From Anaerolineales bacterium (GTDB lineage: Bacteria; Chloroflexota; Anaerolineae; Promineifilales; Promineifilaceae): 21,460 nt of DNA. The stretch lies in the NCBI GenBank assembly GCA_020432595.1, contig JAGQGA010000022.1, positions 1-21,460 on the forward strand. The letters are read 5' to 3'. Positions 3,741 to 20,830 of this stretch are shown here, piece by piece (the first letter of the stretch is position 1; each line of letters starts with the position of its first letter). The position numbers were made by a program, and so were the translations under genes. Below the pieces are notes generated by a model. That model saw nothing but the letters and a program-made list of their open reading frames with translations. It had not been told where the DNA came from and made no database searches.

Positions 3741-3826
3741 TATACTCTGTGCGGTCTGAAATCCGTAGTTTTTCGATACTATCCATGCCATTTGAAACCT
3801 ATGGTTTTCAAATGGCACAGAGTATA
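3741..3826. repeat. 86-bp nested inverted repeat upstream of the operon
   Basis: Outer arms TATACTCTGTGC (3741-3752) and GCACAGAGTATA (3815-3826) are perfect 12-bp inverted repeats. The right arm abuts an inner hairpin, GCCATTTGAAACC (3787-3799) / GGTTTTCAAATGGC (3803-3816), with a TAT loop and one bulged base. A TATAAT string (3823-3828) overlaps the right end, but no -35 box sits at proper spacing. This could be a small non-autonomous element, a structured leader, or the ABC-F transcription end; no T-run follows the stem. Confidence 0.6.
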
Positions 3827-3860
3827 ATACGATCAATACCAACAGCAAGTGATCGTCTGC

Positions 3861-3970
3861 TACTACACTGCGGCGTAAATACGTGACATATTCTCTATAG
3901 CTAAATGCCCTCTATCTCATGGTAGAAAGCAAGGCTGAAATATATCCGTTATTTACGCCGCGTTGTACTA
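3861..3970. repeat. 110-bp element with 21-bp imperfect terminal inverted repeats
   Basis: Left arm 3861-3881 and right arm 3950-3970 pair at 18 of 21 positions, with a perfect 12-bp core GCGGCGTAAATA / TATTTACGCCGC. The 68-bp interior has no obvious structure. An open frame 3919-4104 crosses this element but has no recognisable protein. The element could be a miniature inverted-repeat sequence or a pair of operator half-sites controlling the operon. Confidence 0.55.
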
Positions 3971-4048
3971 GGGCGTGCAGTCTCTCGTTGGTTTGTACAG
4001 TACACATTCACGCATTCTTCATCGCCTGTCTACAAACAATATGCTATC

Positions 4049-4107: not shown

Positions 4108-5046
4108 ATGAAAATGCAAAACTTTGGCGAAAAACCCACCTTCGGTGGTCATGAAAAATTCCCCCTGCGATATGGGTGGTTAAAGAAAGGGGTTGATGCC
4201 ACTCTAGAAAACAACGCTATCTTTTCCCATGATCAGGCTCTCGTCAAGTTAGGGGTAGGCAAAAACATGGTTCGCTCTATCCGTCATTGGTGTCTTGCTA
4301 CCAATCTATTAGAAGAAACGGAGGGCGCGAGTGTCGGGCGCGTTAAGCCATTACAGCCAACCACCTTGGCTAAATACTTTGTTTTGGAAAAAGGGTGGGA
4401 TTGCTATTTGGAAGATATTGGCTCCTACTGGCTAATTCATTGGGAGCTTATCTCTAACAAACACCGTGCTCTTGTTTGGCACATCCTCTTCGCTCAATAC
4501 CATCATTCAGAATTCACCAAACAACAGTTTATTGCCTTCTGTGAGAGATACTTGGAAGATGCAGGTATTAAAACAACAGCGAAGATGATCGAACGAGAGG
4601 TTGATTGTTGCTTGCGTACTTACATTACAATAGTCCGATCAAGCAAAACCACTTTTTCTGAAGATAGTTTGGACTGCCCACTTACAGAATTAGAATTGCT
4701 GCGGTTTATGCCAGCCGATAACGTATACAATTTCAATATTGGACCTAAGTTAACCTTACCCGTTCATGTGTTCGGGTACGCGCTGTTCATGTTTTTACGG
4801 CCGTTTGCCAGCACCCGCCGTACCCTTGCAATTGATGATTGTCTGTACCACTCAGCTAGCCCTGGACAGGTTTTCAAGCTCGATGAAAACAGCTTGGTAA
4901 ACTACCTGGAAGAACTTGAAGGTTTAACAAAAGGAAAGCTACGCTTACAAGAAAGTGGCGGTTTGCGCCAAATATACTTGGACGAAGGCCTCATTGAGAA
5001 CGCCGTCAAAGATGGGTATACTCTGTTGGACAGTTATTATGCATAG
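4108..5046 (+). CDS. DUF4007 family protein, first copy
   Basis: A 312-aa soluble protein and first gene of the operon. The N-terminus (GEKPTFGGHEKFPLRYGWLK) and the later LEDIGSYWLIHWEL stretch are the DUF4007 signature as I know it; this family occurs beside PAPS-reductase/DndC-like genes in Dnd- and BREX-type clusters. Its biochemical role is not established. The predicted content is mostly helical, with a winged-helix-like N-terminal part (DQALVKLGVGKNMVRSIRHW), so DNA binding is plausible. No Shine-Dalgarno sequence precedes the ATG; the upstream bases are AT-rich (AATAAATAATCT), which could mean a leaderless or unstructured start. ATG 4114 is an alternative two codons in. The next gene starts inside its last codons (8-nt overlap). 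A divergent relative lies at 9329-10192. Confidence 0.82.
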   Translation: MKMQNFGEKPTFGGHEKFPLRYGWLKKGVDATLENNAIFSHDQALVKLGVGKNMVRSIRHWCLATNLLEETEGASVGRVKPLQPTTLAKYFVLEKGWDCYLEDIGSYWLIHWELISNKHRALVWHILFAQYHHSEFTKQQFIAFCERYLEDAGIKTTAKMIEREVDCCLRTYITIVRSSKTTFSEDSLDCPLTELELLRFMPADNVYNFNIGPKLTLPVHVFGYALFMFLRPFASTRRTLAIDDCLYHSASPGQVFKLDENSLVNYLEELEGLTKGKLRLQESGGLRQIYLDEGLIENAVKDGYTLLDSYYA

Positions 5047-8000
5047 CGTACCATCAAGATCGTTAGCCCAATTTATTCAAGTTCGTCAGAGCGGGTTGAG
5101 GTCAATTAATGTAGAGCAAGATATAGCAAAAACGGCCGTTTCTGAAAGCTATACTCTCACTCCACAAGCCCACAGCATTCTGACCCGAATGCTTGACCGC
5201 CTCAGCGAATCAGAATCTCCGACTCGTGCCTGGACTCTGACTGGCCCCTATGGATCAGGCAAATCTTATTTCAGCTTATTCTTAATGAATTTGCTCTGTG
5301 CGACGTTGCCTGCTCACCAGCACGTAATCAGGGAGCTAAAGAAAAACGACCCACTATTGGTCAAGCAAATCGCTATTTATGGGCAGATGGCCGACACCAA
5401 AGGCTTCTTACCAATACCTATTACCGGCTACCGGGCATCCTTGCAGGAATGTTTGCTGAATGGTTTTAACCGCGCTATAGCAACCTTGCCACCATATGAA
5501 CCCCTTGCCTACTGGCATAAACAAATGCAAGAAACCATTCTAAGTGCTAACAGCCGTCAGATAGTTGCTCATTTAAATGCGCTCAACGACATCATTCGCT
5601 TGCCAGCACTTGGCTATCGCGGACTTTTGCTTGTATTAGATGAAATGGGCAAACCATTAGAATATCTGGCAAATCACCCAGAAAGGGGAGACATTTACCT
5701 TCTGCAAGAGCTTGCCGAGTTTGTTGACCATGCCGAAAATTCTGTGTTGTTTATAGGTATCTTGCATCAAGGGTTCGAGCGATATGCTGGCAACCTTGAT
5801 ATAACCACACAGCGCGAATGGGCAAAAGTGCAAGGGCGCTTCGCCGATATTGCTTTTCAGGAACCCCCCCATCAACAGATGGCACTGCTAGCTCACGCCA
5901 TTGACAGCACACAGCCACTAGGTTTAGTAGACGAATTCATGGTGGATTACACCCGTCAGTCGCTGGAATATGGCTGGAAGCCGCCCCTACTCTCCGTGCT
6001 TGAGTTTAACGATATATGCCGTCAAGCGTATCCATTGCACCCCACAACGCTGGTTGCATTGCCCCATCTCTTTCGGCGGCTGGCCCAAAACGAGCGCTCC
6101 CTCTTTTCTTACTTAGGCTCGTTAGAGCCGTTTGGCTTTCAGGAATTTTTACATACCCATCAGTCACCCGATGTGATTCGGTTGTATCATCTCTTTGACT
6201 ATTTAGTAGCTAATTTCCAAGGTCGTTTATATGCCTCCATGCGTGGTCGGCTCATCACAGAGACCTTGGAACGGCTGCAAAATGCACCTGAACTCACTTC
6301 TATAGCCATCCAAGTGCTCAAAACAATTGGCTTAGTGAACTGGTTAGCTGAGGTCAGTGCCTTGCAGCCAACCAAACAGACACTCTTGGCGGCACTCTAT
6401 TCACCTGCCATAAAAACGGCCGAGATTCAAGCCGCGTTAGACCTGTTATTAAGCCGTTCGCTCATCGTTTTTCGCCAATTCAATGGTAGCTATGTTGTCT
6501 GGCAGGGCAGCGATGTGGATTTGGACGAACGGATGCAAGCGGCGCAGCACAAGCTGAAAGGAGCATTTGAACTGGCTCGTACGGTAGAACAGTACCTGCC
6601 CCCCAGACCGGTAATGGCTCGTGGCCATAGCTACCGCACCGGGTTCATGCGCTCTTGGCAGATGCGTTATATGGATGTGCCAGATAAACAGGTCATCAAC
6701 CAGAAGACTGAGGTTGGCTTTGCAGGCACAATTCTCCTTTGCCTGCCGCTCACTCAAGCAGCGCGTGAGTTTTTTGCGGTTTGGGCTATGGACTCTAGCT
6801 GGCAAAGCCGCCCAGATTGTGTGATAGGCGTGGCCCAAGAGACGGGACGCATGACACAACTGGCACAAGAGCTACGCAATTTACACTGGATAAGTGAGAA
6901 TACACCAGAGCTACGCGACGATCCGGTTGCCCGACGTGAACTACGTGGACGCATAAACGCGGTGGAAATCCTGATCCGCAGTGAGATTGATCAGACATTG
7001 AGTGCACATAGGCTGGCGAAAGGTCATGCCTGCCGTTGGTTTTCCCAGGGCAACGATTTAACTGACCGTTTTGGGCGTGGTTTGTCTCATTTGCTGTCTA
7101 GCCTTTCCGATGATCTATACTCCAAAAGCCCAATCTTGTGGAATGAGTTAATCAATCGGCGCACCTTATCTTCTCAAGGGGCAGCTGCGCGGCGCAACTT
7201 GATTGAAGCAATGTGGCTGCGCGAAACAGAACCACAGCTTGGCATTACGGGTTACCCTCCTGAGCGCAGCATGTATGAAAGTATTCTGGCGCAAAGTGGT
7301 TTGCACAGACAGGAGCAGAATGGAGCTTGGGGGTTTTATTCATCGCCATCCAGTGATCCACTTAAACTTGCCTCGGTTTGGACGGCCGTTTCTCAATGGA
7401 TATTCACTGACCAACCCCAACAACGCTCAGTAGCCGAACTGTTCCACTACCTCAGCCAGCCCCCATACGGCCTGACCGATGGCATCTTGCCGGTACTACT
7501 ATGTGCCTTTATGCGGGCTTACCAACAGGAGACAACCCTCTACCGCGAAGGCACATTGCTGCCAGCACCAGGAGTGGCCGATTGGGAAGTGTTGTTGCGG
7601 CGGCCAGAGCTTTTCTCAGTTGTCGGGGTGCGGGTGAAAGGGCCGCGTGCAGCCGTAGTAGCTCGTTTGGCAAGAAGTCTAAATGTGGAAACGGCCGTTC
7701 TCCCCATCGTCCGCAACCTTATTCGCCGTGTAGGTACATTGCCAGATTTCGCCTCACGCACCCAACAATTGCCACCCACCACCCTAGCCTTACGCCGGGC
7801 ATTTGAGACGGCACATTCGCCAGAAAAACTCTTGTTTCACGACATGCCCGTTGCCCTCAATTTGCCTCCATTTTCAGACGATGAAGATAGTAGTTCGCAG
7901 CAGGTAGAAAGGTTTTTTGATTGTTTGAACAGTGCTTTACAAGACCTAGCTCAGGCGACGCCTAGAGCGATTGCCATTACCCGGGATCAGCTTCTCTCTG

Positions 8001-8491
8001 CCTGTGACTTCCCCACAGGCAAGAAGGGATGGGAAGCTTTTCGGCGTGAAACGGCCGTTTTGCTCCCGTTCACAAACCAGGATCGTCTGATCCCCCTTCT
8101 CAAGCGAGCGTCCGAGTCAGAAAACCCCGATACTGCCCTAGAAAGTGTGCTGGCTTACATCGCCAGCCGCCCTCCGCGTAGCTGGTCTGATATTGATGTC
8201 CAACGTTTTCCTGGCCAAGCAGCCCAGTTTGGAACCCTCTTCAAAGAGGAGCGGAGCGGATATGACCCAATGGCCGGCCTTTCGCCCGTACAGCGCAAAG
8301 AAGGCGAAAAGATTGCCGATAAGTTACAAATTTTCATCAGCGAAGAACAGGGGGTAGATCTGGTAGTAAAGCGGGCAGCCCTGCGGGCAGTGTTAAAGGA
8401 GCTAGATCGTGTGTCTTCGCGCAACGGCCGTTACCCCACCAACCAGCATCCCACCCCCTCGCCAGAAGGAGACCCTAACCATGTCAATTGA
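5039..8491 (+). CDS. large P-loop ATPase of the BREX/Dnd-associated (BrxC/PglY-like) kind
   Basis: A 1150-aa protein. The N-terminal ATPase domain has Walker A GPYGSGKS (69-76) and Walker B LLLVLDEMGK (D201, E202), then FIGILHQGFERYA, a sensor-like strand. The long remainder has no motif I can name and no membrane segment. Organisation and context resemble the large BrxC/PglY/DUF6079-type ATPases of BREX systems, but it is clearly different from the 1776-aa ATPase later in this operon, so the system has two. Probable role: an ATP-driven motor or switch in phage sensing or modification. The frame is open upstream to 4955, but I chose the ATG at 5039 because it overlaps the DUF4007 stop by 8 nt and the sequence before it is antiparallel coding of that gene's end. 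Its 3' end overlaps brxP by 11 nt. Confidence 0.8.
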   Translation: MHSVPSRSLAQFIQVRQSGLRSINVEQDIAKTAVSESYTLTPQAHSILTRMLDRLSESESPTRAWTLTGPYGSGKSYFSLFLMNLLCATLPAHQHVIRELKKNDPLLVKQIAIYGQMADTKGFLPIPITGYRASLQECLLNGFNRAIATLPPYEPLAYWHKQMQETILSANSRQIVAHLNALNDIIRLPALGYRGLLLVLDEMGKPLEYLANHPERGDIYLLQELAEFVDHAENSVLFIGILHQGFERYAGNLDITTQREWAKVQGRFADIAFQEPPHQQMALLAHAIDSTQPLGLVDEFMVDYTRQSLEYGWKPPLLSVLEFNDICRQAYPLHPTTLVALPHLFRRLAQNERSLFSYLGSLEPFGFQEFLHTHQSPDVIRLYHLFDYLVANFQGRLYASMRGRLITETLERLQNAPELTSIAIQVLKTIGLVNWLAEVSALQPTKQTLLAALYSPAIKTAEIQAALDLLLSRSLIVFRQFNGSYVVWQGSDVDLDERMQAAQHKLKGAFELARTVEQYLPPRPVMARGHSYRTGFMRSWQMRYMDVPDKQVINQKTEVGFAGTILLCLPLTQAAREFFAVWAMDSSWQSRPDCVIGVAQETGRMTQLAQELRNLHWISENTPELRDDPVARRELRGRINAVEILIRSEIDQTLSAHRLAKGHACRWFSQGNDLTDRFGRGLSHLLSSLSDDLYSKSPILWNELINRRTLSSQGAAARRNLIEAMWLRETEPQLGITGYPPERSMYESILAQSGLHRQEQNGAWGFYSSPSSDPLKLASVWTAVSQWIFTDQPQQRSVAELFHYLSQPPYGLTDGILPVLLCAFMRAYQQETTLYREGTLLPAPGVADWEVLLRRPELFSVVGVRVKGPRAAVVARLARSLNVETAVLPIVRNLIRRVGTLPDFASRTQQLPPTTLALRRAFETAHSPEKLLFHDMPVALNLPPFSDDEDSSSQQVERFFDCLNSALQDLAQATPRAIAITRDQLLSACDFPTGKKGWEAFRRETAVLLPFTNQDRLIPLLKRASESENPDTALESVLAYIASRPPRSWSDIDVQRFPGQAAQFGTLFKEERSGYDPMAGLSPVQRKEGEKIADKLQIFISEEQGVDLVVKRAALRAVLKELDRVSSRNGRYPTNQHPTPSPEGDPNHVN
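8464..8471 (+). promoter_or_regulatory. Shine-Dalgarno site that sets the brxP start
   Basis: AGAAGGAG ends 9 nt before the ATG at 8481. It lies inside the end of the preceding ATPase gene and decides against the longer frame that begins at 8409. Confidence 0.75.
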
Positions 8492-9299
8492 TAAAGCTGA
8501 ACAACCCATACGTCACATCCTTTCCCTTTCTGGAGGAAAAGACAGCACCGCTCTAGCTATCTATTTGCACCACCAGATACCGGAACTTGAATACGTCTTT
8601 TGTGATACCGATCAAGAACTGCCTGAGACTTATGATTATCTAGGGCGTCTAGAAGCATTTCTTGGAAAAACAATCCATTACCTTAAGCATGATGGCAAGG
8701 GATTCAAGGAACTCTTAACTGCGCGCCGAGGCTTTTTACCTTCTGCACAAGTACGCTGGTGTACTGAGTATCTAAAAATAAAGCCTTTCGAGAAATTTGT
8801 CGGAGATAACATTGTGTATAGTTACATTGGCATCCGGGCTGATGAACCCCATCGTAAAGGATACATCTCAACAAAACCAAACATTGTTGCTCAATATCCA
8901 TTCATAGATGACGGAATCAGAAAGGATGACGTAATCAGAATCCTTGAAGAAAGTGGCTTGGGTGTTCCTGATTACTATAAATGGCGTTCACGTTCAGGCT
9001 GCTATTTTTGCTTTTTTCAACAACGAATTGAATGGGTTGGTTTGCTGGAGAATCATCCGGATCTTTATGAAAAAGCAATCCAATACGAAAAGATTGACCC
9101 CGAAACTGGCGAACGTTATACCTGGTCCTCACGAGAAAGCTTGGAAGAGCTACGTCATCCGAATCGAATAGCACAAATTCGGGAAGAGCACCAAAAACGC
9201 CAACAACGGTCAGGCAAAGCAGCAGCTAATCAAACGCTTGCTCAGGTGTTTACTGACGAATTAAATGGTGGCGACGGATGTTTAATTTGTCACTTATGA
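8481..9299 (+). CDS. brxP: BrxP-like PAPS-reductase/DndC-family sulfurtransferase
   Basis: A 272-aa cytoplasmic protein of the adenine-nucleotide alpha-hydrolase (PAPS reductase/DndC) superfamily. The PP-loop SGGKDS is at residues 17-22, followed by FCDTDQELPETYDYL, RWCTEYLKIKPFE (C94) and YIGIRADEP. Two CxxC pairs, C174-C177 (GCYFC) and C267-C270 at the extreme C-terminus (CLIC), could hold an Fe-S cluster as in DndC. In family terms it activates a substrate with ATP and inserts or transfers sulfur; PAPS reductase itself reduces PAPS to sulfite. In type 4 BREX this gene is called brxP and stands where other types have the PglX methylase. The cysteine desulfurase at the end of the operon is the likely sulfur donor. 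Base composition is more AT-rich than the downstream genes. The family is sure; phosphorothioation of DNA is inferred. Confidence 0.85.
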   Translation: MSIDKAEQPIRHILSLSGGKDSTALAIYLHHQIPELEYVFCDTDQELPETYDYLGRLEAFLGKTIHYLKHDGKGFKELLTARRGFLPSAQVRWCTEYLKIKPFEKFVGDNIVYSYIGIRADEPHRKGYISTKPNIVAQYPFIDDGIRKDDVIRILEESGLGVPDYYKWRSRSGCYFCFFQQRIEWVGLLENHPDLYEKAIQYEKIDPETGERYTWSSRESLEELRHPNRIAQIREEHQKRQQRSGKAAANQTLAQVFTDELNGGDGCLICHL

Positions 9300-9328
9300 G
9301 CATTATTCAAATTGGTAGCTGGTAAAAA

Positions 9329-10192
9329 ATGACAGATTCACCGCAACGAAACAAACTAGGCGCGTCATTTCATAGAACATTTTCTCTCAGGCGGAATCAA
9401 ATGCAAGATGTACTGAGGATTGCTTACAAGGCTGATTTTAAGGATACGGAAGGACATTGGAGCCGTGAAGAACTCAGAAAAACATCCTCCATTGGGACAA
9501 GACAAGCTGAATCTGCTCCACGCTATGCCTACGGAGCAGGAATGCTTGATGAGAAAAACAAGCTGACGGCGTTTGGTAAACAGGCTTATGAAAATGACCC
9601 AATGCTAGAAAAGCTATCTACAATCTGGCTCATTCATTATTTCCTAAGTGCTCCAAACGGCTTTGGCCCATCTTATTGGCACGACATCGTGGTAACTCGT
9701 TTTCGCACAAGTGACATGATAAGCAAAGCGAGTCTTACAGAACAAATTGCCGATCATATCAAGCATACTGAAGAAAGAGAATTAGCTCCTCGATATGCAC
9801 AATCATTTGCCAATGTTTTTTTAAGAACTTATTCTGAACCAGACGGCTTGTCGAGTTTAGGGATTTTGCGAGAGATTGAAAATGACAAGACATACCTTGT
9901 CGAAGAAGCTGATCCCCCACCTATATGGGCATTTGCCGTAGCTCTCCTCGACTTTTGGCAATATCAATTTCCCAATCGCATCACTGTTAATCTGGATGAA
10001 CTTTATGTAGAGGGCGGTCTCACCAGCATCTTCATGATTGGCGAGGGGCGCATTAACCGCTATTTACGTACCCTGCAACAAGAAGGGATTGTAGATGTAT
10101 TCCGCGTCGCTCCACCCTATCAGGTGGTTTTGCTCAACCCCGATCCCACATTTGCCCTGGATAAACTCTACACCAGCAATGACGACGAATGA
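9329..10192 (+). CDS. DUF4007 family protein, second copy
   Basis: A 287-aa soluble protein sharing the DUF4007 outline with the gene at 4108: an N-terminal SFHRTFSLRRNQMQDVL segment, then KLTAFGKQAYENDPMLEKL and TIWLIHYFLS, matching YWLIHWEL in the first copy. Similarity between the two is low outside these blocks, so they are old paralogs rather than a recent duplication, and the family's function is unknown. A C-terminal segment (YVEGGLTSIFMIGEGRINRYLRTLQQEGIVDVFRV) looks like a winged helix and may bind DNA. It starts 29 nt after brxP with only a weak ribosome-binding site. The next gene overlaps its end by 14 nt. Pairing with brxP suggests it assists substrate or DNA recognition; that is inference. 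Confidence 0.8.
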   Translation: MTDSPQRNKLGASFHRTFSLRRNQMQDVLRIAYKADFKDTEGHWSREELRKTSSIGTRQAESAPRYAYGAGMLDEKNKLTAFGKQAYENDPMLEKLSTIWLIHYFLSAPNGFGPSYWHDIVVTRFRTSDMISKASLTEQIADHIKHTEERELAPRYAQSFANVFLRTYSEPDGLSSLGILREIENDKTYLVEEADPPPIWAFAVALLDFWQYQFPNRITVNLDELYVEGGLTSIFMIGEGRINRYLRTLQQEGIVDVFRVAPPYQVVLLNPDPTFALDKLYTSNDDE

Positions 10193-10628
10193 TGTAATCC
10201 ACACCTTACGACATGGTGGGCTGCGCGTACGCACCGCCTTATGGCTGCTGCCTCCAGAACAGTTAGCCAGTCTGCCAGACAGCGCCGCCCGGCTTGGCAT
10301 TCATCTGGCAGACGTGCGGCAACCATTGCTCAACGCTGTAGCCCCAGATCAACGCTTCCTACATCTGACCGTGCGCGAATTCCTCGAGGCACTTGATGCC
10401 CTGTGCCAAAACCCACAGACCAGCGATTGCCTGCTGGTTGTCAACTGCGATCTCATCATCGCTAGACTGAATTTTCAGGAACGCCGCGAAGCCTGGGACA
10501 CGCTCTATCGGGGCTTACCCCATCGCTCTCACGCCTTATTGATAGCAATGCCAGATAACGCCGACTTGCTGCTGCCAAGCGAACAAGAATTAACCTATTG
10601 GAGGAATGAAGGCCGTCTCGTGCCCTGA
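10179..10628 (+). CDS. small operon protein of unknown function (possible BrxF/BrxB-like accessory)
   Basis: A 149-aa soluble protein I cannot assign to a family. The start is the ATG at 10179, which overlaps the DUF4007 stop by 14 nt; the frame is open upstream to 10095, but that part is the out-of-frame end of the DUF4007 gene. A central strand, DCLLVVNCDLIIARLNFQER, followed by AWDTLYRGLPHRSHALLIAM, resembles the Walker B/sensor half of a small P-loop fold, but there is no Walker A motif, so it should not hydrolyse ATP. The position just before the giant ATPase is where small accessory proteins (BrxB, BrxF) sit in other BREX types; homology to either is only suggested. It ends 41 nt before the next gene. 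Confidence 0.7.
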   Translation: MTTNDVIHTLRHGGLRVRTALWLLPPEQLASLPDSAARLGIHLADVRQPLLNAVAPDQRFLHLTVREFLEALDALCQNPQTSDCLLVVNCDLIIARLNFQERREAWDTLYRGLPHRSHALLIAMPDNADLLLPSEQELTYWRNEGRLVP

Positions 10629-10669
10629 AACTCCAACACCAGTGACATAATTTTTGAAAGGGAGGACAC

Positions 10670-13600: not shown

Positions 13601-16000
13601 GCAAGAATCCAGGCTATAGGACAAAACCAGTTCGACTTGGAAACAGCCAACAACGAAATTGTCTGGCTTCGAGAAACGGGTAAAGACGAGCGCTTTGATG
13701 TAGACCTACGCAGTAGTGCCGATCAAGCGGCTGAGAATCTCGCCCACGCTGTAGGCCAGGCTACCCAATACAACCGCGATGCAAGGCAGTTAAAAGAGCA
13801 GATCAGCAGGGCCAACAGTGCCAAAGACCTGATCGGCCTGCAAAAGAAAATCGGCCAACTTCCCACCCTCGGCAATATTCAGGTGGAAGCCGACCCCCCG
13901 GAAAGCCTGAGGCAGCAGATAGAAGAACGATTAACGGCCGTTGTCGAAGCATTCTGCCGCGAAAACGAGGCCCCCAAGAAAATCACCGACATCGGCCGCA
14001 ACCGCGACCGCCTGAAAGAGGAAAAGAAGGCCGTCACCAATGTCGGCTTGCCACACCTAATAGAGCTTATCGAGCAAAGCCTCAGCCGTCTGGATCAGCG
14101 GGAAAAAGAGCTAGAAGCCGCGCTCCAGGCCGAACAGCGCGAGAAGAACCTCCTGGCAACCATCAACAACGTAGACCCACAAGGCAGGCTGCAACAACTC
14201 CGCGCTGGCCTGGCCGTACTCAACGAGTTGGACAACTTACCAGAAAAGCTGTCCCTTCAATGCGCTGCTCGCCTGCAACAAGTGCAAAAAGCGATTGATG
14301 CCATTTTATCCCAAATCGCTCAATGCCGTCACGACTCGGAAAGCGTCACCCAACAGGCGCAACTTCAACCAATACGCGACAAATTGCTCACCCTCCAACC
14401 TCGTTGCGCCGACACCGAAGAAGCCGAAGAAATTGCTGTGCTGCTTAAGCAGACTGAGGAAATTCGCAGCCGTCTCATTACTCAAGAACAACATCATGCT
14501 GCGCTAAAACAGGCCATTCTCAGCGTCTCAGAACAGGCATCTCTATTGGAACTTAACGAAGGTATTAGCCAATTACCTGAACTACCCGATCTCCCTGCTG
14601 ATCTGGCACAACTGCGTGATAGACAAGTGCGGGTTCTGAAAAAAGCCATTGCTGCTATCCATAACCAGATAGAGGAGGCTGAAAGCGACTTAGAAAGTGG
14701 GCAAAGTACCCAACAGTTCAAGAAAGTGCAGGAAATGCTCTATGCTCTCAAAACACGCTGCTCGGCTATGCCCGAAGCAGAAAGAGTAGAAACGCTGCTG
14801 GCAAGACTGGAAACCAAACGCGAGCAGTTGGCTCAGAAAGAACAACACGCCGCCAACATCCGCCGCGTTTTAGATGAAGCCGACCCTACAGTGCCGCTAA
14901 AACGTTTGCGTGAAGTACAGCAGCAGATTCACAATTTGCAAGATGTACCCCCTAACCTAAGCAAAACACGTGATCAGCGGTTGAGCGAATTAGAGCAAGC
15001 CATCAACAACATTCGCGCTCAGATAGACCGCGCTGGCGTTGATTTGGCTGCTGCACAAAGCCGCAGTGCTATTAACAAAACACGCGATAACCTACTGAAG
15101 CTACAAACCCGTTGCGCCAACACCCCCGAAGAAGCTGAAGTCAACCAGCTAATCTCCCAAACTGATCAGCTAAAGGCCGAATTGGAGGAGCAAGAACGGC
15201 GCAAGAGCGCGTGGCGGGAAACTATCAACAGCGTTAACAGCAATTACCATCGGCTTCGCCAGTTACTTGACGGGCAAGTCATACTGCAAGCACTGACCGA
15301 TCTGCCCGATGATTTGCGCCGCGAGCGAGATGAGCGTTTACGCAACATAGAAAAGGCCATTCAGCCGATTCAACAGCAAGTTGATCGGGTACAGCAATCG
15401 CTTGATGAAGTCGTTAACCCCGTTCAGTTACAGAAACAGCGTGATGAGTTAATCAAGCTCAGACAGCGCTGCGGAGAGACGCCGCTGGAAGCCGTGGTCA
15501 ACCAGCATATTGACCGCGCCGACGCGCTGCAACGCTTTTTTGAGCAAATCGAAAACGAACGCAAGCCACAGATTGATTCGCCAGGAGCCAGTCACGAACA
15601 GGTCAAGCGGTTAGAGCAATTAGAACAAGGGCTTTCCCTTAGCCCTAGCCAACGAGTGCTTCTGACTGAACAACAGGAAAAGGTAAAAACGGCTGCCAGA
15701 GGCCAACGCGAAAAGTCACAGCGTTGGCTGGCAAAGCAGGCGCAGGCTTTCCAAAACAACGAAGCCATCGCAGGGTTGGTCAAACAGTTGGACGCTCCGC
15801 CCGCTACAATTCTCGCCTTTTTGTCGCAAACGGAAGTCCAACAGCTAACAACGTTGCGGCAACAAGCGCAACAACGTATAGACGCCGACGCTTTAAGTGC
15901 TATTGAGAATCGCTTCCGCCAGATTCAAGATCGTCGTTTGCAAGAACAATGTGTGCAAACATTGCAACGAATCCTCGATGCCACACAGGAGGGAGCGTGA
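10670..16000 (+). CDS. brxC: giant BrxC/PglY-like ATPase with C-terminal coiled-coil repeats
   Basis: A 1776-aa protein with a strong ribosome-binding site (GGGAGG) before the ATG. The N-terminal ATPase has Walker A ATYGHGKS (84-91) and Walker B LLILFDEFSLY (~266-276), as in BrxC/PglY/DUF6079 proteins. The middle (~300-1000) has no motif I can name. From ~1155 to ~1627 the protein holds four tandem 118-residue repeats rich in Glu, Gln, Arg and Leu, predicted to be long coiled coils. Each unit has a DLP..L...RD.RL segment, a QL...RD.LL.L segment and an Arg-Cys step (C1246, C1364, C1482, C1601). A degenerate unit probably precedes them. Typical BrxC is ~1200 aa, so this is longer mainly because of the coil. 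Likely a DNA- or complex-bound motor or scaffold. The stop is embedded in the GTGA that begins pglZ. Confidence 0.85.
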   Translation: MTTYKIGDLVKVDERAAFRNDVQLDNFNNPQLNFGLINSYLFSSALPGGRQPTHSLSIAPAGVLENLVQTFLSDRLDNRFYLIATYGHGKSHLALALANYFSRPSASPEVSTLLEKLGNALGDSAKASRYADFKQSRGEFLVLRLRGDVPRSLHEQVLQGLEKALSEHTATKNEKLPFWFAEAERIIINFSPADKEKANQFLESAGYDIPSLLKRLGNREDVYDLCVRLIQHVSSIRPNLGGEVSLAQVIHWATDKFCGKGKPLGGLLILFDEFSLYVQKYAQRNATGELQDLLNGVSDRQGKAAFLAFSQIDLMQLADNLQIAGSTRVGLKRELTRIPKKWVLFSLMESVIDAYLIQDEQRWQTFLSNPQSRGPIHHATDIAWERFKKRYSTTLQWTLQHFQENVTKGCFPLHPITTYLLCNLRLQSDDAGTPRTVLGFVLEELRTRQDEPIVIENRLNWVQPISLVDYFEGRLSGDLYAQYNAARHTIGNDAPEEQAILKALLLQYLAEVRARPDEQIEFLAHTAGLEERVAKQTLRKLSDNHIIRYEQSYGGGYTFWAASNQPKLLQETIQKKLEQFEWSIDELNALNKTLLNSNFGSFEIKVDWGNSTDWAAREYIVTADLLSEWMQHMAAQFTYAYNHRDLIEPDRSSVLWVIASRDDEIVAVREQVSSEFQTTFAKLSENPPVLVAVVPQRAQPELLEAYRRKWALVKFTTKERADAGQEMYDAETKQADIALFRALRLIRSVDEYPAEIERPHTAYIVPTAYIGESRKSERVSLRELLIRLYRVAYAYTPTEFFTQYRVVSKGVNKLKDTTVKSSKVLISNAIADLKALARSDSMVRDLSEKFLIRKWEVLTADYRIKEQPGSRRVREAWQFIDNTIRADNAETKLREALFPLLNPPYGYDYNTALLLFSAWFGYHKLDLEVNVNGRRVQQQALIDLVGKGGPRDFFLAIATSDVVGLRRRAAPDKVAVKARIQAIGQNQFDLETANNEIVWLRETGKDERFDVDLRSSADQAAENLAHAVGQATQYNRDARQLKEQISRANSAKDLIGLQKKIGQLPTLGNIQVEADPPESLRQQIEERLTAVVEAFCRENEAPKKITDIGRNRDRLKEEKKAVTNVGLPHLIELIEQSLSRLDQREKELEAALQAEQREKNLLATINNVDPQGRLQQLRAGLAVLNELDNLPEKLSLQCAARLQQVQKAIDAILSQIAQCRHDSESVTQQAQLQPIRDKLLTLQPRCADTEEAEEIAVLLKQTEEIRSRLITQEQHHAALKQAILSVSEQASLLELNEGISQLPELPDLPADLAQLRDRQVRVLKKAIAAIHNQIEEAESDLESGQSTQQFKKVQEMLYALKTRCSAMPEAERVETLLARLETKREQLAQKEQHAANIRRVLDEADPTVPLKRLREVQQQIHNLQDVPPNLSKTRDQRLSELEQAINNIRAQIDRAGVDLAAAQSRSAINKTRDNLLKLQTRCANTPEEAEVNQLISQTDQLKAELEEQERRKSAWRETINSVNSNYHRLRQLLDGQVILQALTDLPDDLRRERDERLRNIEKAIQPIQQQVDRVQQSLDEVVNPVQLQKQRDELIKLRQRCGETPLEAVVNQHIDRADALQRFFEQIENERKPQIDSPGASHEQVKRLEQLEQGLSLSPSQRVLLTEQQEKVKTAARGQREKSQRWLAKQAQAFQNNEAIAGLVKQLDAPPATILAFLSQTEVQQLTTLRQQAQQRIDADALSAIENRFRQIQDRRLQEQCVQTLQRILDATQEGA
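14132..15553 (+). repeat. four tandem 118-codon repeats inside brxC
   Basis: The units begin near residues 1155, 1273, 1391 and 1509. They are aligned by their Arg-Cys steps (TLQPRCADT, ALKTRCSAM, KLQTRCANT, KLRQRCGET), whose cysteines are 118, 118 and 119 residues apart. DNA identity between units is low, so the repeat is old and kept at the protein level. Confidence 0.8.
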
Positions 16001-18183
16001 CAGGTGACATGATGAGTGATATGCTGCTAGACCGCGCTAAAGATATGCCAACACCTGACGGGTATAAGGCTATCGAATCTGAAGTTGATTTTCTTCGATT
16101 TGCCATCGGTGGTATGCCTCTGTTAGTGCGTGGGGAAAGTCTATGCCAATGGGCTGAAACGTTTTGTAACGGCCGTCGCATCCCCTACCGTGAACTACTA
16201 TCGCCTACCCAAATGCTGCGAGAGCTTGTACCCAGCCTAAGAGAAGCCGAAGCGCAAGCAATTCGCGCTGTTCTGCCTGACCAACTTGCAACTAGGCTAC
16301 AGCAACTGAACCTGACTGGTCTATTACAAGCCCTGTTCCCTAATGCCTTATGGGAGGAACGGCCGTCCATTACCCATGCTGCTGACTGGTTGCTGTGGTT
16401 GTACGAAAAGACCCCAGACAGTGTATTTGAGCCGCTGTTTGCCGAAAACGGCCGTCGCTGGCAACGCGACATAGACAACGCAACCCACACTCTCTATGAT
16501 GCTACCAACGCTGTCAGCGCTTGCCACCTACTTGAACGCTGGCTTGGCCTCCCCCACGATCCCGTCTTCATAGAATTGGGCGTGTTCCCCCACACATTGC
16601 CAGAACGCCTACGCACCCATGCCACCAACATCCTGAAAGACCAGATCATCACCAAACATGGCACGCTCATCGGTGAACTGGAAACGCAGCCAGTTCCACT
16701 CGATTTACGACGCCTGACCGCCCAGGAAACCGTCAATTACCTAATTCACAACCCACGCGACCTCACCCCCAATTTGCGGGATCAACTTACCCCGTATCTG
16801 ACGCAGGATGAGCAAAATTGCGTCTTGGCGTTGATGCCCCCTGCCATGCCGGAATTGCCCCCTGAGCAGCCAGAAGCCGTGCTAGATTGGTTCCGCCACC
16901 AATACATGCCTGCACGCCAATGGCAATCCACGCATGGCTCAGATGCCGAGAGCGAGAAAATCAGTACTACCGCCGAGCAATTTGCCCAGTGGTATCTGCA
17001 TGAATACCCTCGCGCCTTGAACGGCGGTTGGCTGCAACAGCATCTTAGCTTCAATCGCGCCGCATCGAATCAGCAACAAAAGTCACACATCACGCTTTAC
17101 CTTGTCCTGGATGGACTGCACGTCTTAGATGCCAGGCGGCTGCTTGACTATCTGCATCAGGAAACCAAACGGCTTACCGTCTGGGAAGATGGGCTGGTCT
17201 TCACCCCGCTACCCACCATTACCGAAGTATGCAAGCCGGCTCTGTTCGCCGGTGTGCCCCCAAAACTAGCGCATGACGTCGCTGCATTAGGCATCATCGT
17301 ACCAGAAAAAGAAAATCCGGCCGAAAAATTGAGCGGCGCATCCCCCGGTGAGTTTTATCTTTGGCGCATTTTGGAGCCAGATAGCACTTACCACAAACAA
17401 AATAGTTCGGCCACACTGCACGAGGAAATTAAAGGGCGGTTGTCGAGCATCGCCAGCAAAATCACCGCCATGGTCAATCAGGTTCCGGTAGAATTACCCT
17501 TACGCCTGATTATCACCACGGATCACGGCCGCTTACTAGCTAAGGCTACCCGCGTCCTGAACGTGCCAGCCGAAATGCAAAGCCAGGGGCGTGCCGCGCT
17601 TGGCGTGTCCAGACGGCAGTTTGATGAGCGCGGTTTTCTCATTGAGGATGATATTGTCTACCTCCATGCAGCGCGTTTTGGTCTATCTACCGATGCCGCC
17701 GTTTCCCTCAGAGGCGACACCTTCCGCACCAACGATGGCAAAACAGGTAGCGAGTGGTATCCGCATGGCGGCTTGTACCCTGAAGAAGTCATTGTACCAT
17801 GGATCGAACTGGTGCGGGATGCAACCATGCCAGCCGTTACTGTTACCCTTAGGGGTAGTGGGCAGGCCGGGCAAAGCGGCCAATTTATCCTGCAATTGCG
17901 TAACCCAGGTGATATATCGGTAACGGCCGTTGCGCTCTCCCTCCTGATCGCCGGACAACCCTTCAAACTGCCAATCAACCAAGCTATAACGCCCTACAGC
18001 GAACAAACTTTCACCTTAAGTTGGTCATCCTGGTTAAAGAGAGCTGAAGTCAGTCAAACCACTGTCACCCTCAGCCTGCAACTGCCTAATGGCCTTTCCT
18101 TTACCGTCCCCATCGCTAATCCTGAAATAGAAAGTATCGAGATGTATCGGCGCGACAACAACTTAGGAGACCTGGACCTATGA
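15997..18183 (+). CDS. pglZ: PglZ, alkaline-phosphatase-superfamily BREX protein
   Basis: A 728-aa protein with the PglZ domain in the middle. A metal-binding strand YLVLDGLHVLDARRLL (D372) is followed by the TPLPTIT stretch, where the alkaline-phosphatase-type Thr is expected (T407 or T409), and ITTDHGRLL (D509, H510). PglZ occurs in all BREX types; its enzymatic activity is not settled, but metal-dependent nuclease or phosphatase activity is reported in the family. After ~605 comes a Thr/Ser-rich beta-sandwich-like tail (VTVTLRGSG... to ...SLQLPNGLSFTVPI), perhaps for partner binding. I chose the GTG at 15997 because it overlaps the brxC stop as GTGA and has AGGAGG (15987-15992) at ideal spacing; ATGs at 16009 and 16012 are less well placed. 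It ends in an ATGA overlap with brxL. Confidence 0.9.
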   Translation: MTGDMMSDMLLDRAKDMPTPDGYKAIESEVDFLRFAIGGMPLLVRGESLCQWAETFCNGRRIPYRELLSPTQMLRELVPSLREAEAQAIRAVLPDQLATRLQQLNLTGLLQALFPNALWEERPSITHAADWLLWLYEKTPDSVFEPLFAENGRRWQRDIDNATHTLYDATNAVSACHLLERWLGLPHDPVFIELGVFPHTLPERLRTHATNILKDQIITKHGTLIGELETQPVPLDLRRLTAQETVNYLIHNPRDLTPNLRDQLTPYLTQDEQNCVLALMPPAMPELPPEQPEAVLDWFRHQYMPARQWQSTHGSDAESEKISTTAEQFAQWYLHEYPRALNGGWLQQHLSFNRAASNQQQKSHITLYLVLDGLHVLDARRLLDYLHQETKRLTVWEDGLVFTPLPTITEVCKPALFAGVPPKLAHDVAALGIIVPEKENPAEKLSGASPGEFYLWRILEPDSTYHKQNSSATLHEEIKGRLSSIASKITAMVNQVPVELPLRLIITTDHGRLLAKATRVLNVPAEMQSQGRAALGVSRRQFDERGFLIEDDIVYLHAARFGLSTDAAVSLRGDTFRTNDGKTGSEWYPHGGLYPEEVIVPWIELVRDATMPAVTVTLRGSGQAGQSGQFILQLRNPGDISVTAVALSLLIAGQPFKLPINQAITPYSEQTFTLSWSSWLKRAEVSQTTVTLSLQLPNGLSFTVPIANPEIESIEMYRRDNNLGDLDL

Positions 18184-19643
18184 GCCTATTCGATAGCACG
18201 ACAATGGATGATCCCGCCGAAACCGCAACAAGTAAACGAGACGATAAAGTTCTCTCTGTGTTTGGCAACCTGGCAATTGACAAACGCCGCCTGCCCATGA
18301 GCCAACTGCAAAAACGAGGCGTTCCGGCCTATGTCGCCGAATGGGTGCTAGACAGCATCGTGCCTGGACAAGGCCCGCTGACAGAAGCCGAAGCCGCCAA
18401 AGTCCAAGCATGGGCCAATAAATTTATCCCTGGGCCTGGTGATGCCAATTTGCTTAAAAACCGCCTCATGAGCGGTGAATTGGTCAAGGTGCTGAACCCT
18501 GTACAAGTTGAAATCGAACTGACGCGCAAGCGGCAAGATCGGGTTGCCAAACTCAGTCTCTTAGGCATTCATGATGGGGTTATTGGTGAAGGGATCATTG
18601 ATGCTTACCCTGACTTATTACAACAAGGCATGTGGGGTGTTGTTGAACTCATTCACACCCAAGAAGGGATTACTCTCAGCAACTTCCGCCCAATGCAAGC
18701 GACGGTAAACCTACAATTGTATAAAGAGGCTCGCCGTCGCTTTACCCTAGACGAATGGCGTGAATTGATGCTCATATCCATGGGTTACAATCCGAAGGCT
18801 TTCAACCTTGATGAACAGCTTTTGCTCCTGTGTCGGCTATTGCCTTTGGTGCAAAAAAACATGCACATGATAGAACTCGCGCCGAAGGGGACAGGCAAAA
18901 GCTACATTTATGAAAATGTTAGCCCCTCAGTGCGCCTAGTCAGTGGGGGCAACATCTCCCCTGCTGTACTATTTGTCAACAATCAGTCAGGGCAATGGGG
19001 ATTATTGGCTCGTTTTGCCGTCGTCGTGCTAGATGAAGTACAAACGCTGCGCTTTGAGAAGCCAGAGGAAATTATCGGTGGCCTAAAAGGATTCTTAGCC
19101 AATGGGCGACTCACTCGCGGCGGTTTACACGAAACAGCCAGCGATTGCGGCCTAGTCATGCTGGCAAATATCAAGCTCGACAGCCAGCAAAAACCCCTAC
19201 ACAATCTGTTTATTCAAGAATTGCCATCATTCTTGCAAGAAACAGCCTTTTTGGATCGCATCCGCGCCCTGATTCCTGGTTGGGAAATCCGCAAGTTAAG
19301 CGGAGAATGTTTTGCACGGGGTGTCGGCCTCAAGTCCGACTTCTTTGGCGATGCCTTACTATCGCTGCGCGACGACTTGGAACACGACCAACGGGCAGCA
19401 CGGCGCATTGAGCTACTGGGGGATCGCGTCTACAAGCGTAACGAGGACGCTGTACATGCTATTGCCAGCGGAATGCTCAAGATCCTCTTCCCACATGGAC
19501 AGGTATCGCGGACAGAGTTTGAGCAATATTGTGTAAAACCTGCCCGCCATTTGCGGCAATTAGTGTGGAATCAACTGCAAATCCTAGACGGGGAGTACCG
19601 TCAATACGAAAATTTGATTCGCTACCAAATTTTGGATGAGTAA
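18180..19643 (+). CDS. brxL: BrxL, short form (AAA+ Lon-related BREX protein)
   Basis: A 487-aa protein beginning in an ATGA overlap with pglZ and preceded by TAGGAGA. It has the BrxL layout: an N-terminal DNA-binding-like region, FTLDEWRELMLISMGYNP, then an AAA+ core with Walker A PKGTGKS (235-241), Walker B VVVLDEV (D285, E286) and FLDRIRALIPGWE near the arginine-finger region. BrxL in type 1 systems is ~680 aa and ends in a Lon-like domain; here the protein stops soon after the AAA+ core and a helical segment (EDAVHAIASGMLKILFPHG), so no Lon-type catalytic serine-lysine domain is present. In type 1 BREX, BrxL is needed for phage exclusion but not for modification. It shares TAATG with the next gene. 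The short form is known in this family, so truncation is not implied. Confidence 0.9.
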   Translation: MSLFDSTTMDDPAETATSKRDDKVLSVFGNLAIDKRRLPMSQLQKRGVPAYVAEWVLDSIVPGQGPLTEAEAAKVQAWANKFIPGPGDANLLKNRLMSGELVKVLNPVQVEIELTRKRQDRVAKLSLLGIHDGVIGEGIIDAYPDLLQQGMWGVVELIHTQEGITLSNFRPMQATVNLQLYKEARRRFTLDEWRELMLISMGYNPKAFNLDEQLLLLCRLLPLVQKNMHMIELAPKGTGKSYIYENVSPSVRLVSGGNISPAVLFVNNQSGQWGLLARFAVVVLDEVQTLRFEKPEEIIGGLKGFLANGRLTRGGLHETASDCGLVMLANIKLDSQQKPLHNLFIQELPSFLQETAFLDRIRALIPGWEIRKLSGECFARGVGLKSDFFGDALLSLRDDLEHDQRAARRIELLGDRVYKRNEDAVHAIASGMLKILFPHGQVSRTEFEQYCVKPARHLRQLVWNQLQILDGEYRQYENLIRYQILDE

Positions 19644-20830
19644 TGTTACATCTCGACAACCCAATTTATCTGGACAATAACGCCACCACACGATGCGATC
19701 CGGCCGTTGTTGCAGCAATGCTGCCTTACTTCTCCGAATGGTATGGCAATGCTGCAACTGGATTGCACCCATTAGGGCGCAAAGCAGCCCGCGCCATAGA
19801 GGTTGCCCGCGAACAAACGGCCGTTTTGCTTAACGCCCATCCTACTGAGATTATCTTCACCAGTGGAGCTACCGAAAGCAACAATCTGGCTATTCTAGGG
19901 CTTGGTCGTAGAGCGGTAGGAAGCCAGCGGAAACGGATTGTGACAACATCTGTCGAACACAAGGCCGTCCTCGAACCTTGCTACGCTTTGGCCTCCTTGG
20001 GTTACGAAACCATAGTCCTACCAGTAGATAGTGCAGGACTGGTAGATATTTCAGCAGCACAAGATGCTATTAATGAAAACACACTATTTGTAACAATACA
20101 AGCGGCAAACAACGAAATCGGCACATTGCAGCCTGTGTCACAACTTGCGTCACTGTCCCATGCCGTTGGTGCATTGATCCATTGTGATGCTGCCCAAGCT
20201 GTCGGGAAAATTCCAGTTGACGTTCTTGCGTGGAATGTAGACCTTCTCTCTCTCAGTGCTCATAAGTTTTATGGACCCAAAGGTGTTGGAGCCCTCTATA
20301 TCCGCAACGGCCCCCGAACCATTCCCCTAGAACCTCTCACTTATGGCGGTGGACAAGAACACGCTGTGCGCTCCGGCACCTCTAATGTCTCCGGACTCGT
20401 TGGGTTAGGCGTAGCAGCACAGCTATGTATGACCCTCCTACCTGAGGAAAGCCAACGAATCAGAGCCATGCGTGACAATTTAGAATCGCAACTATTATCC
20501 AATATACCTGCTGTTTGGGTCAACGGAGCAAATGCAGAACGCCTCCCCAATACCCTCAGCCTCACGATCCCGAATGCTGAAGCTGATGCACTTTTACTTA
20601 ACCTGCCAGGAATCATGCTAGGAACGGGGGCAGCTTGCTCAACAGGGACATTGGAACCTTCTCATGTCTTACAAGCCATAGGTCTAAGTCGCTCTGATGC
20701 TGGATCAACAATCCGTTTAAGCCTCGGTAGATTTAACTCAGCAGAAGAACTCGCGCTAATTGTGATCAAAATTGCACAAGCTATAGATATTTACAGGACA
20801 CAAAACCTTCATCTTTTATCTAGTACATAA
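19643..20830 (+). CDS. cysteine desulfurase (NifS/IscS/DndA-type, PLP-dependent)
   Basis: A 395-aa cytosolic enzyme that removes sulfur from L-cysteine as an enzyme persulfide, giving alanine. Visible parts: YLDNNATTRCDP at the N-terminus, FTSGATESNNLAILGL, the cofactor-binding lysine in SLSAHKFYGPKGVGALY (K208), and the persulfide cysteine in GTGAACSTGTLEPSHVLQAI (C332). Length and motifs are those of class I enzymes. The start codon shares one base with the brxL stop (TAATG), so it belongs to the operon; no iscU, iscR or tRNA-thiolation gene is nearby. In Dnd systems DndA, and in Ssp systems SspA, are such desulfurases and feed DndC or SspD. Here BrxP is the natural partner, which is the main reason to infer sulfur chemistry. 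A general Fe-S supply role for BrxP's cluster is an alternative. Confidence 0.92.
   Translation: MLHLDNPIYLDNNATTRCDPAVVAAMLPYFSEWYGNAATGLHPLGRKAARAIEVAREQTAVLLNAHPTEIIFTSGATESNNLAILGLGRRAVGSQRKRIVTTSVEHKAVLEPCYALASLGYETIVLPVDSAGLVDISAAQDAINENTLFVTIQAANNEIGTLQPVSQLASLSHAVGALIHCDAAQAVGKIPVDVLAWNVDLLSLSAHKFYGPKGVGALYIRNGPRTIPLEPLTYGGGQEHAVRSGTSNVSGLVGLGVAAQLCMTLLPEESQRIRAMRDNLESQLLSNIPAVWVNGANAERLPNTLSLTIPNAEADALLLNLPGIMLGTGAACSTGTLEPSHVLQAIGLSRSDAGSTIRLSLGRFNSAEELALIVIKIAQAIDIYRTQNLHLLSST

Follow-up and report, generated by a model that had tools for sequence, protein, structure and literature searches.

A nine-gene operon of an Anaerolineales bacterium that probably joins an SspABCD phosphorothioate writer with a nested BREX restriction half

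We analyzed a stretch of 21,460 nucleotides (nt) from an Anaerolineales bacterium (contig JAGQGA010000022.1; the whole stretch is called the window below), which contains nine co-directional genes. These genes probably form a composite phosphorothioate-based defence operon, in which an SspABCD sulfur writer has the restriction half of a bacteriophage exclusion (BREX) system nested inside it, and a reading as two modules fits them better than one as an enlarged type 4 BREX system. All nine open reading frames (ORFs) were confirmed on the forward strand, spanning window positions 4108–20830 (Table 1), in the order SspB, SspC, SspD, a second DUF4007 protein (DUF4007b), a small protein of 149 amino acids (aa), an ATPase of 1776 aa, PglZ, short BrxL and the cysteine desulfurase SspA/DndA. 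The overlapping starts described in an earlier note on this sequence are real: with likely ATG starts, adjacent genes overlap by 1–14 nt at five of the eight junctions (SspB/SspC, SspC/SspD, DUF4007b/small protein, PglZ/BrxL and BrxL/SspA), and the other three are gaps of 8, 29 and 41 nt. Since sspA lies beyond the BREX half, the half is nested within the ssp operon.

For naming the genes, the nine operon proteins were scanned with PADLOC, Pfam and NCBIfam, and four flanking ORFs with Pfam only. According to PADLOC, SspA, SspB, SspC and SspD score 462, 286, 996 and 377 bits, respectively, so that a complete Ssp set is present in one operon. SspB also matches PF13182 (267 bits) and solved SspB (6juf/6lb9, at E 7e-33), SspC has intact Walker A (GPYGSGKS) and Walker B (LVLDE) motifs, and SspA has 24 structure matches, including solved DndA (3vax) and SspA (6m4j), with IscS-type chains scoring higher. 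The earlier note had read the ORF at 4955–8491 as a BrxC/PglY-like ATPase; the protein does score 846 bits on the BrxC model PDLC02478, but its identity is SspC. As this 'BrxC' model gives SspC such a score, tools may already label parts of such loci as type 4 BREX. Ssp proteins insert sulfur into the DNA backbone (according to PMC12707154 and PMC8092258), and the SspABCD set of the window is expected, by analogy, to do the same.

The protein that the note had labelled a DndC/3'-phosphoadenylylsulfate (PAPS) reductase turned out to be SspD, with an SGGKD motif; its 377 bits compare with 36 bits over 170 residues on the BrxP model and 27 bits on the DndC model. We rejected BrxP for this 272-aa protein, which has no ferredoxin domain match in Pfam; true BrxP proteins score 258 bits (locus L029) and 958 bits (genome G891). 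Dnd and assimilatory CysH identities were rejected on model scores, the latter, which the note had raised as a possible grouping of this protein, with 20 bits on NF002537 (cut-off 154). No DndD or DndE match was found in the nine proteins by PADLOC, Pfam or NCBIfam, so the BREX-Dnd hybrid proposed in the note had the wrong partner, and we relabel the locus as an Ssp writer that encloses a BREX half. PADLOC matched no SspE or SspFGH among the nine proteins. The note was right that there is no methyltransferase: none, PglX included, was matched among the 13 window proteins scanned, and neither were HerA and TGT. Sulfur-transfer genes stand in the place of the methyltransferase, and a phosphorothioate mark is our best prediction for the host DNA, judging from the genes present; the sulfur self mark proposed earlier is kept in this sense, without the BrxP that was to make it together with the desulfurase.

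The five genes between SspD and SspA make up the BREX half. PglZ and short BrxL, like the desulfurase, are as the note had named them (Table 1). The predicted PglZ fold matches PorX and BREX PglZ, with the conserved residues present, and BrxL scores 510 bits on TIGR02688 (cut-off 329), matches solved BrxL (8emc) at E 3e-57 and has the N-terminal and ATPase domains only. The fourth gene of the operon gives a weaker DUF4007/SspB match in PADLOC (54 bits), and the fifth and sixth (the small protein and the second ATPase) have no PADLOC match; for the small protein, which stands at the position of BrxB, Foldseek gave no match at E 0.001 or better. Using hhalign, the second ATPase aligns with SspC at E 9e-39 and with type 4 BrxC at E 3e-43, being homologous to both across more than 800 columns, and it carries GHGKS and LFDE motifs. 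Its C-terminus consists of about four tandem coiled-coil repeats of about 118 aa (window 14219–15634). Among 120 listed homologues (472 were found), 103 are 1378–1430 aa long; others have 1537, 1659 or 1776 aa, suggesting a stepwise change of length. Its profile had 20 matches in PDB at E ≤1, mostly coiled coils, with no AAA+ match in the ATPase region. PF19557, precomputed on 3 of the 120 listed homologues, was not used; a current Pfam scan of P0128, one of these three, gave no match. A scan of viral contigs found no relative.

Canonical type 4 loci show how the half relates to BREX. Locus L029 has the order BrxP, DUF4007, small protein, BrxC, PglZ and BrxL, and L087 and L088 have BrxP, BrxC, PglZ and BrxL (the PglZ and BrxC identities of L087 were confirmed). 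In content and order as compared with L029, the window is thus SspBCD, then type 4 minus BrxP, then SspA. The note had called the locus richer than the minimal type 4 set, and the extra ATPase and DUF4007 protein are indeed there; together with the small protein, PglZ and BrxL they form a second block.

The operon recurs. Using 17 ATPase homologues as queries, a scan of GTDB species genomes gave 33 loci, of which 21 (L001–L021) have the Ssp-linked form; they come from Chloroflexota, Armatimonadota, Bacteroidota and one unplaced bacterium. The earlier note had proposed a count of gene orders along with the PADLOC scan: all nine genes stand in order in 13 of these 21 (the SspA of L008 is a fragment), including Levilinea saccharolytica KIBI-1 and two Hymenobacter strains, and five of the 21 are cut by contig ends (L001, L002, L011, L016 and L018). 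With full recurrence in 13 of 33 loci, the nine-gene order is far beyond chance. The other 12 loci include the half without Ssp genes (L022–L024), a half-like set with a type-4-like ATPase (L025 and L026), SspBCD with such a half-like set and ATPase (L027), BrxP-type loci (L029 and L030), and Ssp genes without the half (L028 and L031–L033). More nine-gene loci are L053, L058, L060 (SspC split), L061 and L063 (SspC and SspD short); L057, on the same contig as L010, is not counted. The half is rare in the four phyla sampled, with 7/386, 5/400 (Chloroflexota), 4/395 and 1/84 genomes, each tally including the seed genome of its group, and the first three scoring at most two candidate places per genome, so that misses are possible.

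There were three plasmid matches, and both of the records opened carry the nine genes in order: Thermomicrobium roseum DSM 5159 (L110), a cultured strain with a complete plasmid record, and Pseudanabaena galeata (L111). On the T. roseum plasmid a type III-B CRISPR (clustered regularly interspaced short palindromic repeats) cluster follows the operon on the opposite strand (L110:21376–27750). The P. galeata plasmid pPg_05 has PemK/MazF toxin and Uma2 endonuclease genes within the operon (L111:6253–8705) and, directly upstream of it, a gene annotated as phosphorothioation-associated putative methyltransferase.

We compared pairwise protein-distance matrices over 20 loci including the window (17 for SspA), without L001, L002, L008, L009, L011, L016, L018, L063, L110 and L111 (of these, L008 and L009 hold most genes). 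Matrix correlations are 0.82–0.96 (r) within SspA/B/C/D and 0.86–0.97 within DUF4007b/small protein/ATPase/PglZ, as compared to 0.62–0.78 across the two groups, and the split into writer and half ranks first of the 35 possible four-four splits, with perfect separation. SspA, though the last gene, tracks the distances of SspB, SspC and SspD; BrxL is intermediate (mean r of 0.81 with the writer and 0.87 with the half). The pattern indicates that the genes move together as one operon, with a dividing line between the writer and the effector genes.

How such an operon might work can be sketched from other systems, and it is in this sketch that we infer the sulfur chemistry, the self-protection, the nuclease action and the BrxB role. 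SspA would pass the sulfur of cysteine to SspD; SspB and the SspC ATPase would choose the DNA sites, where SspD would swap a phosphate oxygen for sulfur to give the self mark, as in other Ssp systems. The second DUF4007-ATPase pair, paralogous to SspB-SspC, would scan DNA and, with the putatively BrxB-like small protein, bring PglZ as nuclease and BrxL as motor to unmarked DNA, where these two would block phage replication as other BREX systems suggest. An ordinary type 4 system would use one DUF4007 protein and one ATPase for both jobs, and the window would have a separate set for each. Modification and restriction appear to be genetically separated, with one DUF4007-ATPase pair predicted per job, so that each half could be deleted and tested alone; this bears on self/non-self discrimination in BREX and on how modification is coupled to restriction.

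Several observations, at the level of loci, proteins and trees, weigh against a writer and a half that belong together in this way. In Chloroflexota, 17 of the 21 genomes with SspD gave no ATPase match (two candidate places per genome scored), and since the writer is often without the half, their adjacency could be a defence-island effect. Locus L025 (Chloroflexaceae) combines a half-like set with an ATPase of type-4-like form, and its 21.5 kb gave no match to a writer, which argues in part against a strict need for an adjacent one. Neither SspD nor DndC was matched in the Poribacteria genome G008, four cyanobacterial loci have no adjoining writer (L024/L064, L052 with a degraded half, L054 and L056), and brxL is not followed by sspA in L009 (where about 0.6 kb is left), L017 and L021, three of the 21 Ssp-linked loci. 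As for the proteins, the PglZ of L023 lacks the aspartate aligned with D525, and the fold ranking of the small protein does not separate BrxB from generic AAA+ proteins. The commonness of SspD without the half, the four cyanobacterial loci and L025, and the partly separate evolution of the modules in the distance matrices would all fit two independent neighbours, an Ssp system and next to it a BREX-like set making no use of the sulfur mark, their linkage being defence-island clustering maintained by horizontal transfer. We consider this unlikely: in loci of several phyla the half has ssp genes on both sides, with sspA following it, and most operon genes overlap. Besides, all 5 of 400 Chloroflexota genomes with the window-type ATPase carry SspD (in cis in G710, on a different contig from the ATPase in G603), as compared to 21 of 281 overall, and DndC is present in all eight cyanobacterial genomes with the half, a count that is confounded as described below.

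The remaining points of this kind concern descent. In a tree of DUF4007 proteins (69 rows; a quick method, midpoint root, Shimodaira-Hasegawa-like approximate likelihood ratio test (SH-aLRT) support only), the SspB proteins of these operons cluster with those of Ssp-only loci (28 rows, 98), and DUF4007b makes up a clade of its own with 26 rows (98), apart from SspB. The DUF4007 proteins of the type 4 and type-4-like loci L025, L026, L027, L029 and L030 fall on the SspB side (33 rows, 98), although the DUF4007b model gives every one of them a higher score than the SspB model does, and cyanobacterial and Poribacteria DUF4007b rows lie outside the DUF4007b clade of the window (weak forks). Type 4 BrxC is likewise nearer to SspC (E 5e-61, 989 columns) than to the second ATPase (3e-43). 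That the type 4 DUF4007 proteins and BrxC are nearer to SspB and SspC argues in part against descent of the half from type 4; it looks, from these sequence comparisons, as if the single type 4 pair resembles the pair of the writer and the new element is the second DUF4007-ATPase pair. Among the PglZ models, that of the canonical type 4 locus L087 (PDLC02550) differs from that of the window (PDLC02549).

The same relationships could be taken to mean that the second pair provides a second sulfur-insertion specificity, sharing SspD and SspA, in which case there would be two modified motifs and PglZ and BrxL would be the sole effectors. Both pairs consist of a DUF4007 protein and an ATPase, homology between the ATPases extends across more than 800 columns, the type 4 pair of L029 stands in the same position directly with BrxP, and by tree and profile that pair is nearer to SspB/SspC. 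We find this improbable, given that the correlations among DUF4007b, the small protein, the ATPase and PglZ (r 0.86–0.97) exceed those of these four with SspD (0.62–0.64), and that a distantly related pair is also found after SspF/G/H-like restriction genes (L062). In that Bacteroidota locus (L062:4238–19900), an SspD fragment, SspA and SspF/G/H-like genes are followed by the distant DUF4007-ATPase pair.

We examined eight cyanobacterial genomes with the half. In two of them the half is convergent with DndC and a DndD/PbeC-type ATPase (L023:10627–14267, and L051 with L066:1437–6812), three loci have it with Ssp genes (L053, L063 and L055, the last with SspD only), and genome G005 has two copies of it. 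The two loci beside DndC suggest that the half may serve as effector for different sulfur writers. DndC is found somewhere in 8/8 of these genomes as compared to 66/244 in a phylum sample that contains three of the eight (G001, G125 and G216); as it is confounded by lineage and genome size, the association of the half with DndC across cyanobacteria is suggestive only. Going further, the five genes from DUF4007b to BrxL could be a BREX restriction module that is tied to no particular writer and recognizes phosphorothioate from unrelated ones, encoded in cis or in trans. The writer would be Ssp in Chloroflexota, Bacteroidota, Armatimonadota and part of the cyanobacteria, and Dnd in other members of that last phylum. 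We put this forward tentatively, as a possibility with the chances leaning against it; if true, BREX self-recognition would depend on the sulfur mark itself and not on a dedicated modification subunit. As the half is found with Ssp genes in some loci and with Dnd genes in others, the reading of a sulfur mark from unrelated enzymes becomes testable, and cultured carriers (T. roseum DSM 5159, L. saccharolytica KIBI-1 and Hymenobacter) allow direct testing.

We note two cyanobacterial loci with additional genes. In L053 the genes for SspD and DUF4007b are separated by one for SspE (1088 bits; L053:5215–7491), so that a single writer may serve two predicted sets of effectors. In L024 a PglW-like NERD-kinase protein with a weak PglZ-model match (52 bits) follows the ATPase, at the usual place of PglZ (L024:14598–17504).

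The position of SspE in L053 bears on whether the mark might act in reverse, with phosphorothioate activating restriction by PglZ/BrxL, in the manner of SspE, rather than protecting self. SspE is stimulated by phosphorothioate according to PMC8092258, while SspFGH, another partner of SspBCD, damages unmarked DNA according to the same paper, and the separate DUF4007-ATPase pair suggests site recognition; we regard a reversed mark as very unlikely, and keep to a writer whose mark would protect the host from the nested half.

The primary report on type 4 BREX as a phosphorothioate system is said, as cited, to be Yuan et al. 2024. PMC12839542 counts type 4 BREX among the phosphorothioate systems and gives a desulfurase for 255 of 457 taxa (56%), and brxPCZL is described as a third family of phosphorothioate synthesis genes in PMC11931770. 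The making of phosphorothioate DNA by type 4 BREX, in many cases together with a desulfurase, has already been reported; what is new here is a second pair of DUF4007 protein and ATPase, and a layout that is nested and in part swappable. A literature search over titles and abstract openings, with supplementary tables outside its scope, found no description of SspABCD with a nested BREX half or of two DUF4007-ATPase pairs, and nine-gene loci may already be counted as type 4 in published supplementary tables. Searching for T. roseum together with phosphorothioate returned only RNase P papers.

With type 4 BREX the window shares PglZ, BrxL, a BrxC-family ATPase, DUF4007, a PAPS-reductase-like protein and the lack of PglX, as well as a desulfurase, which many type 4 taxa have; with L029 it shares the order DUF4007, small protein, ATPase, PglZ and BrxL, there after BrxP. 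It differs in having SspD instead of BrxP, two DUF4007 proteins and two BrxC-family ATPases instead of one each, and a free gene for the putatively BrxB-like protein, whereas a BrxB-like domain is fused to PglZ in 292 type 4 taxa according to PMC12839542. All four of SspA, SspB, SspC and SspD are shared with SspABCD systems that have SspE or SspFGH, but the partner in the window is the BREX half. The predicted chemistry and the desulfurase are shared with Dnd, and the half stands beside DndC and a DndD/PbeC-type ATPase in L023 and L051/L066, but in the window no protein reaches DndC grade, and DndD and DndE gave no match. BREX-related HerA/FtsK capture (BRC) has PglZ, an ORC/Cdc6-type BrxC-like ATPase, a STAND-type protein and DUF4007 in common with the window, according to PMC12839542; among the proteins scanned the window has no HerA/TGT match, but it has a sulfur writer and BrxL, and its upstream GNAT gene is separated by an ABC-F gene.

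Table 1. Genes of the operon (window coordinates) with the model scores on which their names are based.
Gene product	Position	Strand	Evidence
SspB (DUF4007 protein 1), predicted DNA-binding/nicking writer subunit	4108..5046	+	PDLC02769 286 bits
SspC, writer AAA+ ATPase	5039..8491 (ORF from 4955; likely start ATG 5039)	+	PDLC02779 996 bits
SspD, PAPS-reductase-like sulfur transferase, 272 aa	8481..9299 (ATG 8481)	+	PDLC02782 377 bits
DUF4007b (DUF4007 protein 2), predicted BrxA-like DNA-binding subunit, BREX half	9329..10192	+	PF13182 55 bits
Small 149-aa protein, putative BrxB-like P-loop-less AAA/STAND fold	10179..10628 (ORF from 10095; likely start 10179)	+	
Second BrxC/SspC-family AAA+ ATPase, 1776 aa	10670..16000	+	hhalign to SspC, type 4 BrxC
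PglZ, alkaline-phosphatase-fold predicted nuclease	16009..18183 (ORF from 15949; residues 1-21 low confidence, start uncertain)	+	PDLC02549 381 bits
BrxL, short AAA+ form without Lon protease domain, 487 aa	18180..19643	+	PDLC02507 725 bits
SspA/DndA cysteine desulfurase, last gene	19643..20830	+	PDLC02657 464 bits, PDLC02759 462 bits

Upstream of the operon are genes for a GNAT protein (616–1533) and then an ABC-F-like double ATPase, neither of which is counted in the operon. Two imperfect inverted repeats with arms of 32–33 nt (window 3741–3826 and 3860–3971) lie directly upstream of the operon and are possibly a small mobile element or an operator. Among the related loci, the BrxC-like ATPase is fused to a 500-aa protein in the Chloroflexales-type locus L027 (L027:9881–15109), and in L025 the 500-aa protein is free and follows the BrxC-like ATPase (L025:13564–15069), with no match in Pfam or PADLOC.

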